Source: Arcicella sp. (lineage in GTDB: Bacteria; Bacteroidota; Bacteroidia; Cytophagales; Spirosomataceae). From it: DNA of 33,019 nucleotides. The DNA lies in NCBI GenBank assembly GCA_025454855.1, contig JALONS010000012.1:1-33019 (forward strand), in the 5' to 3' direction. The notes below the pieces were generated by a model. That model was not told the DNA's origin. It saw only the letters and a program-made list of their open reading frames with translations, and ran no database searches. Shown here in pieces: positions 8,417-24,496 of this stretch (positions within the stretch are counted from its first letter, which is position 1; every line of letters starts with the position of its first letter). The position numbers and the translations under genes were made by a program.

Positions 8417-9154
8417 ATGGAAAATAAAGTTGTTTTAGTTACAGGAGGTTCACGAGGTATCGGACGTTCAATTTGTGAAACACTTGCCGAAAGAGGCTGT
8501 ACCGTAATTTTCACTTACTTAAGTAACGAAGAAAAGGCACAAGCATTAGCTGCTGAAATTAGAGAAAAAGGACAAAAAGCATTCGCTTACTATTGTGATA
8601 TGAGTGATTTGAAGTCAGTAGTTGCCTTTTCAGCAAAAATTCGTAAAGAATATGGAAATTTTGACGCACTGGTGAATAATGCAGGAATTTTAGGCGATGG
8701 AAAACCTTTCTTAATGTCTGCCGATGACCATTGGTGGAATGTGATGAAAACAAATATCGGTAGTGTTACTAATACTTGTAGAGCGGTAGTTCCACAAATG
8801 ATTGCTCAGAAAAAAGGAAGAATAGTAAACATCACTTCGGTGTCAGGTCAGAAAGGTAATCCGGGGCAATCGGCTTACTCAGCTTCTAAATCTGCTATTG
8901 TTACTTTCTCGAAAGCATTAGCCAAAGAAGTAGGAAGATTTGGTGTGGTAGTAAACTGTGTATCTCCGGGACTCATCGAAACGGATATGACCAAAAATAT
9001 ATCAAACGAATACGTATCTGCACGCTCACAGTTTTCGGCACTTACTCGGAAAGGTGAGGTACAAGAAGTAGCCAGTTTAGTTTCTTATCTTATTTGTGAC
9101 GCTCCTGAATATATTGTCGCTCAGGAACTTACGATTGATGGAGGCTTAGTATAA
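8417..9154 (+). CDS. 3-oxoacyl-ACP reductase (FabG-like SDR)
   Basis: VLVTGGSRGIGRSI, NNAGILGD, YSASKSAIVTFSKALAKE. Confidence 0.93.
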   Translation: MENKVVLVTGGSRGIGRSICETLAERGCTVIFTYLSNEEKAQALAAEIREKGQKAFAYYCDMSDLKSVVAFSAKIRKEYGNFDALVNNAGILGDGKPFLMSADDHWWNVMKTNIGSVTNTCRAVVPQMIAQKKGRIVNITSVSGQKGNPGQSAYSASKSAIVTFSKALAKEVGRFGVVVNCVSPGLIETDMTKNISNEYVSARSQFSALTRKGEVQEVASLVSYLICDAPEYIVAQELTIDGGLV

Positions 9155-9205
9155 AGATTTCTATCATTATTTCAAAATCTAAATCAACTCTGAAAACTTA
9201 GCGTC

Positions 9206-10423
9206 ATGGAAAGAGTAGTAATCACGGGTATTGGCATTAGTTGCTCAACCGGAAAAAACAAAGAAGAATTTAAAGAAAGCCTATACAGTGGTAAAGTTGG
9301 ATTAAAACCAATAGCTGCTGAACGTTTTCCTACTGAATCTCCCGTTTACAAAAACAAAAGTGCTTGTGTTTTAGACCAAGAGTATTTTGAAGAATTGAAA
9401 GCGGTTGATAATACTATACTTACTGAAATATCCGTGAGGGTAGTTGAAGAGGCGATGATTGATGCTGCTATCAACTTAGATAAAATCAACCGTAGAAAGG
9501 TGGGCATTTGCATGGCAACCACCATTGGAGGGTCTTATCCTTTTATGGATTTTACAAAAAGACGAGTTGATGGCATATTCAAAAAAGAAGATTATGAATT
9601 GATTTTTAAGGCTTCTACTCCAAATATTACAGGAAGTGTTCTTCGTTATTTTGGACTAAATGGACCTACCTCTACTATTTCAACGGCTTGTGCTGCTGGT
9701 ACTAATTCTATTGGGCGAGCTTTTGATATGATTTCAAATGGACGTATAGATATGTGCGTTAGTGGTGGAGTAGATGTTTTTTCTGAATTGAGCTTTGCAG
9801 GTTTTAATTCTTTACAGTCTTTATCTCGTGGAATATGCCAACCTTTTGATAAGAAAAGAGATGGACTTACCCTTGGTGATGCCAGTGCCTTTGTTATCAT
9901 GGAAAGTTTGAGCCATGCTCAAAAGAGAGGAGCAAAGATTTACTGTGAAATAAAAGGGTATTCTGCCAATAACGAAGCGTACCATCCTACGTCTCCTAAT
10001 CCAGACGGAAGTACCGCTTGTTTAACGATGCAACAAGCTCTAAAGCAAGCAGATATGAATATTGCTGAAATTCAATATATTAATGCACACGGAACTGCAA
10101 CTGGTGCTAATGATGGGATGGAGATAAACGGAATTCGGAAGCTATTTGGTGAACAACCGGTATATCTTAGTTCTACCAAATCAATGACTGGGCATACCTT
10201 AGGTGCAGCAGGAAGTATTGAACTAATAGCTACCAGTTTAGGAATGCACCATGGGTTTGTACCACCATCTTGTAATATCACTACGCCATTGATTGAGGAA
10301 AACGATAATTTAAGAATTGTACAAAATAAAGCCCTTGATTACGAATACGAAGGAGCTTTGTCTAATTCTTTCGGATTTGCTGGCTGTATGGCATCAATGG
10401 CAATTAAACGTTTTGATAATTAA
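9206..10423 (+). CDS. Beta-ketoacyl-ACP synthase (FabF-like, catalytically complete)
   Basis: STACAAGTNSIG (active Cys), NAHGTATGANDGME and KSMTGHTLGAAGSIE (both His). Confidence 0.94.
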   Translation: MERVVITGIGISCSTGKNKEEFKESLYSGKVGLKPIAAERFPTESPVYKNKSACVLDQEYFEELKAVDNTILTEISVRVVEEAMIDAAINLDKINRRKVGICMATTIGGSYPFMDFTKRRVDGIFKKEDYELIFKASTPNITGSVLRYFGLNGPTSTISTACAAGTNSIGRAFDMISNGRIDMCVSGGVDVFSELSFAGFNSLQSLSRGICQPFDKKRDGLTLGDASAFVIMESLSHAQKRGAKIYCEIKGYSANNEAYHPTSPNPDGSTACLTMQQALKQADMNIAEIQYINAHGTATGANDGMEINGIRKLFGEQPVYLSSTKSMTGHTLGAAGSIELIATSLGMHHGFVPPSCNITTPLIEENDNLRIVQNKALDYEYEGALSNSFGFAGCMASMAIKRFDN

Positions 10424-23271: not shown

Positions 23272-23275
23272 TATC

Positions 23276-24496
23276 ATGGAAACTTCAAACGCTGTTGTCT
23301 CAAAGAATCCAGTTTATATGCAATCTCCTTATTTGGATATTACCATACTGGAATCCCTCGGGAAAAGCACCATACACAATATTGTTAATGGCAAAAGTTA
23401 TGATGTAAGCCCATTAGTAGCACAAATTCTACTGTTTTTCAGAAATCAAGAGAGTTTAGATAATTTATTATTACAATTCGGACTTGAAGAGGAAAATATT
23501 ACTAAAACCATTGACTTTCTGTTGGATAATAAATTGTTGGTACAGGTTTCTGAAGAAGGTTGGGAACAATTTACCATTGATGTTATTGCAGCTAAAAATA
23601 GATTATTTGGCGTAGGCGGTTATCATAAAAAAGCCCAAAATGTAATGGTGGGTATTCCATTTGGTAAGGGTAATGGTAAATCTGCAGGTGGCGGAGAATT
23701 CCCTTTCCAAATTAGAGAATATAGCCAAAAAGCAGGATATTATTTGGGGCGTTCAAATTTTCAATGTTTTGACGCTGAAACGGCTAAGAGATTGCAAAGT
23801 AAATTTTCAAAAAATGACTTAGTAGATTTCGGAAATTTATTTATAAGTACCAACGAGTCACCAGCGTTTATTTATGAGAAAATGTACAAAATTGCAGATA
23901 AGTTATGGGCAAATAAGCAGACACCAGCTTTTATTGGAGGAGACCATTCCATCAGTTTTCCATTGATAAAAGCGGCTGCCAATCACTATCCTAATTTGCA
24001 TATTATTCATTTTGATGCTCATACGGATACCTATACTTCTCGATACGATAATATCAATCATTGGGGCAAAACGCATCACTATGGGAACTTCATGACACAC
24101 GCTTTAGCATTGCCACAAGTTAAAAACGTGTATCAATTTGGTATTAGAGGAATGTCTAATATCAACGAAAAATCCTCTGAGAAACAACATATTTTTTGGA
24201 GACACGAAATAAGCGAAAAACTTTTTACACCCAAAACATTTGATTTACCCAAGAATGTACCCTACTACGTAACCTTTGATATAGATGTAATAGACCCAAC
24301 GGTTTGCCCCGGAACAGCAACCCCAATTCCAAATGGCTTTAATCTGAGGGAAATGAAAAAATTATTTGATAAAACCTTAGCAGGAAAACAAATCATAGGC
24401 TTTGATTTTGTAGAAGCCAACAATGATTTTGATAAGACAGACCTAACCAATCAGGTATTTTTAGAGGTTTTTCTGCAATTATTAAGTTATGTGTAA
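23276..24496 (+). CDS. Arginase/ureohydrolase-family enzyme with PqqD/RRE-like N-terminal domain (candidate peptide arginase)
   Basis: IGGDHSISFPLIKAA, IIHFDAHTDTYTSRYDN, YVTFDIDVIDPTVCPGTATPIPNGFNLREM; N-terminus KSYDVSPLVAQILLFFRNQESLDNLLLQFGLEEENITKTIDFLLDNKLLVQ is PqqD-like. Confidence 0.87.
   Translation: METSNAVVSKNPVYMQSPYLDITILESLGKSTIHNIVNGKSYDVSPLVAQILLFFRNQESLDNLLLQFGLEEENITKTIDFLLDNKLLVQVSEEGWEQFTIDVIAAKNRLFGVGGYHKKAQNVMVGIPFGKGNGKSAGGGEFPFQIREYSQKAGYYLGRSNFQCFDAETAKRLQSKFSKNDLVDFGNLFISTNESPAFIYEKMYKIADKLWANKQTPAFIGGDHSISFPLIKAAANHYPNLHIIHFDAHTDTYTSRYDNINHWGKTHHYGNFMTHALALPQVKNVYQFGIRGMSNINEKSSEKQHIFWRHEISEKLFTPKTFDLPKNVPYYVTFDIDVIDPTVCPGTATPIPNGFNLREMKKLFDKTLAGKQIIGFDFVEANNDFDKTDLTNQVFLEVFLQLLSYV

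Follow-up and report, generated by a model that had tools for sequence, protein, structure and literature searches.

Several kinds of ribosomally synthesized and post-translationally modified peptides (RiPPs) are lipidated, and the selidamides, lipolanthines, goadvionins, and lipoavitides are all acylated by GNAT enzymes. The last three are class III lanthipeptides that are joined at the N terminus to an acyl chain made by a polyketide synthase (PKS) or fatty acid synthase (FAS) from their own cluster. In the selidamides (kamptornamide and phaeornamide), an OspR-type arginase converts a peptide arginine to ornithine, and the ornithine side chain is then acylated with fatty acids from primary metabolism. 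The peptide arginase OspR belongs to family PF12640, KgrD (PF00491) makes the ornithine of the enteropeptins, and selidamides carry acyl-ornithine (PMC12703449). Here we describe a block of co-oriented genes at positions 8417 to 24496 of a 33,019-nucleotide stretch of DNA from Arcicella sp. (GenBank assembly GCA_025454855.1, contig JALONS010000012.1, our contig C76; the whole stretch is termed the window herein), which belongs to a draft genome of 5.4 Mb that is 84% complete. We propose, with a probability of roughly 0.6, that the block encodes a RiPP lipopeptide pathway in which the arginine of an invariant Arg-Cys pair would be converted to ornithine, the ornithine acylated with a chain from a dedicated pair of ketosynthase (KS) and chain-length factor (CLF), and the leader peptide cut off.

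The product would thus resemble a lipidated RiPP made by the logic proposed for selidamides, arginine to ornithine followed by fatty acylation of the side chain, but with nonhomologous parts. The arginase is a PF00491 protein fused to a RiPP recognition element (RRE) and not a PF12640 protein, the candidate acyltransferase has the LPLAT fold and is not a GNAT, and the chain would come from the cluster's own KS/CLF system instead of from primary metabolism. LanM is absent, and the short leader has no recognized similarity to NHLP or Nif11 leaders (no Pfam match for precursor A3, and no NCBIfam match for A3, A4, or a precursor from a second locus of the source genome, L109). A PF00491 arginase and a precursor arginine adjoining a cysteine, the features seen in enteropeptins, are both present, and conversion to ornithine would be the shared step; in enteropeptins, however, a radical SAM enzyme first forms a thiomorpholine and a methyltransferase acts afterwards, whereas a radical SAM gene occurs in only 2 of the 15 loci compared here, with precursors of its own. 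Lipolanthines, goadvionins, and lipoavitides share with the proposed product the union of a RiPP with an acyl chain from its own cluster, but none of their enzymes is encoded here.

Distribution of the gene set

Loci were gathered by searching for the arginase, which was found in five other genomes and as a second copy in the source genome among 396 genomes of the order. Five further loci came from searches by genus and by family, and a scan of genome contigs with the arginase alignment, dominated by ordinary agmatinases, gave four usable loci (L013 to L016), the rest being kept as controls. The flanking DNA was inspected at each of the 16 loci surveyed, which are not all independent, as five come from one genus (Spirosoma) and two (G223 and G243) from close relatives. 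A phylum-wide draw of 399 genomes returned the source genome alone, and viral contigs gave no match.

Genes of the window were assigned with Pfam and NCBIfam, and every gene listed in the original prediction, which was made from the sequence alone, is present on the plus strand between 8417 and 24496 (Table 1). That prediction had taken these genes for one pathway and proposed to look for co-occurrence of the precursor family, the arginase, and KS/CLF across genomes. Such co-occurrence was found in 11 loci: the set of ketoreductase (KR), KS, dehydratase (DH), CLF, acyltransferase, AMP-ligase, acyl carrier protein (ACP), Arg-Cys precursors, M50 protease, arginase, and TonB receptor recurs in 10 loci besides the window, with protein identities of 25 to 67% and with genes that are reshuffled in order yet still together. 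The gene set is therefore not a chance neighborhood, and the comparison supports a single pathway. The phosphopantetheinyl transferase (PPTase) and the thioesterase are recognized by homology in most of the full loci (the PPTase in 10 of 11); G1155 has a PPTase-like open reading frame (ORF) and a hydrolase-like ORF. The full loci come from Spirosomaceae, the Chondrinema type (where the locus sits on a 641-kb plasmid), Lewinella, and one genome of the Flavobacteriaceae from the family sample around Aquimarina, and in L013 the arginase, acyltransferase, ligase, PPTase, DH, and CLF genes are contiguous.

Precursors and arginase without FAS genes, the pattern that had been named as speaking against the pathway, exist in three minimal loci (contig C393 of the source genome, G888, and Aquimarina L014), which consist of Arg-Cys precursors, M50 protease, arginase, and acyltransferase. 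The cassette on C393 (L109, source genome G000, 9097 to 14051) holds four precursors with two Arg-Cys pairs, and it adjoins genes resembling part of an NADH dehydrogenase (nuo) operon. In the gammaproteobacterium Thalassotalea, a candidate precursor ending in DPNRCVNYPHCKFKGGKI is accompanied by the M50 protease, arginase, and acyltransferase, but the chain supply differs, with a separate distant KS, a MaoC-type dehydratase, an ACP, a KR, and no CLF. The acyltransferase is present in 15 of 15 loci with the trio of arginase, acyltransferase, and M50 protease, a count from which the more distant Neolewinella locus L015 was excluded; there, arginase, acyltransferase, PPTase, and KS lie within 21 kb, and no M50 protease or Arg-Cys precursor was found. 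The acyltransferase thus accompanies the arginase even where FAS genes are absent, and it is the supply genes that vary. The predicted dedicated KS/CLF supply is supported for the full loci, with FAS genes as the usual but optional source of acyl groups, and the minimal loci point to a modular acyl supply and do not refute lipidation. In 76 ordinary agmatinase loci (1.3 Mb) examined as a control, there was no homologue of the acyltransferase, M50 protease, KS, or CLF and no Arg-Cys precursor.

Precursor peptides and arginase

The seven predicted precursor genes are confirmed at 20528 to 21596. Most differences between the copies fall on the third position of codons (39, 21, and 142 differences at the three positions; 105 synonymous and 56 nonsynonymous), a pattern indicating that the genes are translated and under selection. 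All 85 distinct precursors collected that contain the IVELE-type motif carry an Arg-Cys pair downstream of it, at the same offset in 84 of them, followed by a variable tail of 5 to 20 residues after the cysteine; some precursors of minimal loci carry two such pairs (ERCSNRC and GRCHRC). This conservation agrees with the earlier suggestion that the arginine of the pair is the likely substrate of the arginase, which would convert it to ornithine.

The arginase itself is not of the OspR type that had been assumed; PF12640 was rejected because the protein's only Pfam match is PF00491. Its six metal ligands are invariant in an alignment of 27 members. The structural model (pLDDT 90) has an N-terminal domain with the order strand-strand-strand-helix-helix-helix, and residues 13 to 95 match the RRE structure 8VPO with an E value of 4.4e-9. 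RREs are defined by a strict order of three strands and then three helices together with homology to a known RRE, for which 8VPO serves as a reference (PMC12710340), and residues 13 to 95 of the arginase show both.

Acyltransferase and M50 protease

An AlphaFold2 model of the acyltransferase (pLDDT 82) matched 14 PDB structures with E values below 0.001, all of them PatA or LpxM. By sequence, the protein has no match in the PDB and none in Pfam; relatives reach PF03279 (Lip_A_acyltrans). Its C-terminal ∼70 residues form three strands and then three helices in the model (at 336 to 394), and this domain aligns with the arginase RRE in hhalign at 1.2e-4, a value that none of 150 shuffles reached. 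No GNAT domain was found among the annotated genes of the block. Two features, an RRE-like domain of its own and its pairing with the arginase in loci that lack FAS genes, make the LpxL-like protein the likely acyl-transfer enzyme, in line with the suggestion that such a protein takes the place of a GNAT. In Spirosoma G802, the acyltransferase (L117, 17796 to 18997) is split into two overlapping ORFs of 279 and 126 amino acids, which may reflect a frameshift or a sequencing error.

The HExxH and DG metal motifs of the M50 protease are invariant in 10 homologues, and its best NCBIfam match is the daptide intramembrane protease. The N-terminal domain aligns with the arginase RRE at 7.8e-7 (hhalign; again reached by none of 150 shuffles), and its top PDB matches, all nonsignificant, include TruD, MusD, and LynD. 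The candidate RRE-like domains of the protease and the acyltransferase are less firm than the RRE of the arginase. Recognition-like domains on three enzymes encoded beside one precursor family are the strongest sign that all three act on the peptide.

Proposed pathway and alternatives

The proposed pathway builds on features read from sequences or models, namely, the gene set, its conserved synteny, the invariant Arg-Cys, the intact metal sites, the arginase RRE, and the acyltransferase fold. The RRE domains would hold each of the seven precursors via the conserved (L/S)IVELE(E/D)RFE stretch, and the RRE-fused arginase would hydrolyze the arginine of Arg-Cys to ornithine. KS/CLF, KR, DH, and ACP would build the chain, for which the AMP-ligase and PPTase would provide priming and the thioesterase editing. 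As the conserved set lacks a dedicated enoyl reductase, the known logic of KS/CLF, KR, and DH systems suggests that this chain is probably (poly)unsaturated. The LpxL/PatA-fold acyltransferase would then move this chain from the ACP to the side-chain amine of the presumed ornithine, and the RRE-bearing M50 protease would cut off the leader, releasing a short acyl-Orn-Cys-tail peptide.

Several observations weigh against this proposal. Support for the RRE-like domain of the acyltransferase comes from its predicted topology and from a profile match of moderate strength, and the domain matches neither the M50 N-terminal domain nor known RRE structures in the PDB. The HX4(E/D) motif of LpxL reads YHLGxYR/Q in the acyltransferases inspected, with Arg or Gln in place of the catalytic Glu/Asp, and the active site thus differs from that of LpxL and LpxM. 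An arginine in the leader (ELE-E/D-R) is also invariant and could in principle be the arginase substrate, such that the motif alone cannot decide between the two; the Thalassotalea candidate, whose assignment as a precursor is weak, has the arginine of Arg-Cys and no leader arginine. Finally, the invariant cysteine after the arginine is not accounted for.

This cysteine, together with the altered HX4(E/D) dyad and the fact that LPLAT enzymes normally acylate hydroxyls, would fit a lipidated RiPP that is acylated elsewhere, with arginine-to-ornithine conversion as a separate tailoring step. The acyl group could sit on the new N terminus after M50 cleavage, the position acylated in lipolanthines and goadvionins, or on the cysteine thiol, perhaps followed by an S-to-N shift to ornithine. 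We consider this unlikely, as the pairing of arginase and acyltransferase in minimal loci is hard to explain unless ornithine is the acceptor. It is improbable that the KS/CLF/KR/DH/ACP block is an aryl polyene- or flexirubin-like lipid pathway lying merely beside a RiPP operon. The likeness is one of gene content: such pathways also combine KS/CLF, KR, DH, ACP, an LpxL-like acyltransferase, ligase, PPTase, and thioesterase without a dedicated enoyl reductase, and the KR scores on FlxB, though below the cutoff (216 versus 340 bits). Here, however, the genes are tied to precursor peptides, M50 protease, and arginase; they are colocalized in 11 loci despite reshuffling, the ACP lies near the precursors, the arginase of L013 adjoins acyltransferase, ligase, DH, and CLF, and the Thalassotalea trio is paired with a different FAS. 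No gene for an aromatic starter or a (dialkyl)resorcinol was found among window ORFs of at least 100 amino acids.

The domain makeup of the LanB-like protein is compatible with a peptide aminoacyl-tRNA ligase (PEARL): the elimination domain of class I lanthipeptide LanB proteins (PF14028) was not found in it, a hallmark of such ligases, and the precursors are short. A scaffold-peptide pathway, in which this protein would act on the precursors and a small molecule would be released from the peptide, is nonetheless very improbable, because 10 of the 15 loci that have these precursors lack the protein, which therefore cannot be a core step. Its place in the pathway as originally envisaged shrinks to that of an accessory, present in 5 of 15 trio loci (the window and four Spirosoma loci). 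The radical SAM gene at 6301 was likewise rejected as a core gene, as it occurs in 2 of 15 trio loci with its own GG precursors. We give hardly any credence to an arginase that acts on a free small guanidino compound while the precursors are modified otherwise: the nearest solved structures to its catalytic domain are agmatinases, but the protein has an RRE and adjoins precursors with invariant Arg-Cys, and ordinary agmatinases lack such neighbors.

If acyl-ornithine formation as proposed here is correct, the loci represent a parallel solution to ornithine lipidation, so far known from selidamides, with none of their enzymes, in which a lipid A-type acyltransferase acts on a ribosomal peptide, linking it to a chain from a type II KS/CLF system. 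Chances are about even, in our view, that they form a distinct class of lipidated RiPPs, marked by the trio of RRE-arginase, RRE-bearing LPLAT acyltransferase, and RRE-M50 protease, by acyl-ornithine-cysteine peptides, by the first LpxL/PatA-type peptide N-acyltransferase, and by a modular acyl supply (none, KS/CLF, or separate KS/MaoC). Literature searches found no RiPP with a PF00491-RRE arginase, LPLAT, and KS/CLF, nor one in Bacteroidota with KS/CLF, LpxL, or arginase, although an earlier description may exist. The operons are compact, one being as small as a precursor plus three enzymes, and the loci carry several precursors each; both features would help in engineering lipopeptides and bring the pathway within reach of tests in E. 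coli.

Genes of the block and its surroundings

The assignments of PPTase, ACP, and acyltransferase are weak on sequence alone. The window also holds genes beyond the list or range of the original prediction: those for a DUF2141 protein (16334), a helix-turn-helix (HTH) regulator (19726), a 70-amino-acid GG peptide (13383), a TonB receptor (24607), and a flanking radical SAM/C39/HlyD system. An MDR reductase gene at 26825 is confined to the window and Spirosoma loci.

TABLE 1 Genes of the candidate lipopeptide block and its conserved neighbor in the window
Feature	Position	Strand	Evidence
KR (3-oxoacyl-ACP reductase)	8417..9154	+	PF00106 adh_short, 1.1e-64; homologue in 11 full loci, 43-67% identity
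KS, catalytic ketosynthase	9206..10423	+	PF00109/PF02801, 1e-33/1e-35; active-site Cys in STACAAG; best PDB match 9s5h_B
DH, FabZ/FabA-like dehydratase	10442..10915	+	PF07977, 7.4e-19
CLF, chain-length-factor-like KS	10928..12166	+	PF00109 (ketoacyl-synt N) only, 1e-17; no active-site Cys motif; matches both KS-like chains of 9s5h
LpxL/PatA-fold acyltransferase with C-terminal RRE-like domain (~330-399)	12171..13370	+	AlphaFold2 model, PDB matches, hhalign; in all 15 trio loci
LanB-like glutamylation-domain protein, accessory	13717..16284 (ORF from TTG at 13648)	+	PF04738 Lant_dehydr_N, 1.1e-17; no Lant_dehydr_C
DUF2141 secreted protein, accessory	16334..16753	+	PF09912, 2.5e-27; in 8/11 full loci
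AMP-forming acyl ligase, probable starter loading	16878..18362	+	PF00501, 6e-48
4'-Phosphopantetheinyl transferase (PPTase)	18340..18993	+	AusB family, 1.2e-14, below cutoff; PF01648 just under cutoff
Type II thioesterase	18995..19714	+	PF00975, 1.1e-26
HTH regulator	19726..19980	+	PF01381, 3.5e-11; homologue in several Spirosomaceae loci
ACP (IQDSLAILEIS), adjoins precursor array	20108..20395	+	PF00550 weak, 14.1 bits; DSL motif; homologue in 11/11 full loci
Precursor A1 (...AALDTARCSETQAA)	20528..20644	+	
Precursor A2	20677..20796	+	
Precursor A3	20823..20945	+	
Precursor A4	20972..21103	+	
Precursor A5	21143..21262	+	
Precursor A6	21289..21426	+	
Precursor A7	21465..21596	+	
M50 intramembrane metalloprotease with RRE-like N-terminal domain, probable leader protease	21997..23271	+	PF02163, 1.3e-8
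Peptide arginase candidate: RRE (~13-95) and PF00491 ureohydrolase	23276..24496	+	PF00491, 4e-49; metal ligands H224, D247, H249, D251, D335, D337
TonB-dependent receptor, conserved neighbor	24607..26811	+	PF13715/PF07715; homologue in 11/11 full loci

On either side of the block (window 5818 to 7434 and 28936 to 32233) lie genes that look like a second, separate RiPP system with its own GG precursors. They encode two GG-leader peptides (5818 to 6075 and 6089 to 6301), a YhhB/FxsB-like radical SAM protein (6301 to 7434), an HlyD protein, and a C39-peptidase ABC exporter; G012 (L106/L107) has these genes grouped with a similar RGGDKEYTPIYD peptide, adjoining the lipopeptide cluster. The 70-amino-acid peptide at 13383 to 13595 has an RGG leader-type motif and lies directly 5' of the LanB gene, and the Spirosoma locus checked (G803) has no room for an equivalent. 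Full-length LanB proteins (1,036 to 1,054 amino acids) are encoded near several clusters (L101, 4117 to 7529; L121, 7308 to 10840; L119, 1 to 1075; L122, 8917 to 12066; L134, 2124 to 5234), the L101 protein having both LanB domains. Three of them are accompanied by a small peptide that contains FD(D/N)NWxVSAxDxFG, possibly a further RiPP type in the neighborhood. At Neolewinella L015 (3464 to 5704), two proteins resemble, by eye, an ATP-grasp enzyme and a SPASM partner (grasp-with-spasm type), with no Pfam match.

Genes for LytTR response regulators and histidine kinases lie near many clusters (window 3606 to 5493, L101, L102, L107, L109, L122, and L133) and might sense the product, although such pairs are common in Bacteroidota. 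Together with the conserved TonB receptors, they make a role of the product in signaling or uptake conceivable.

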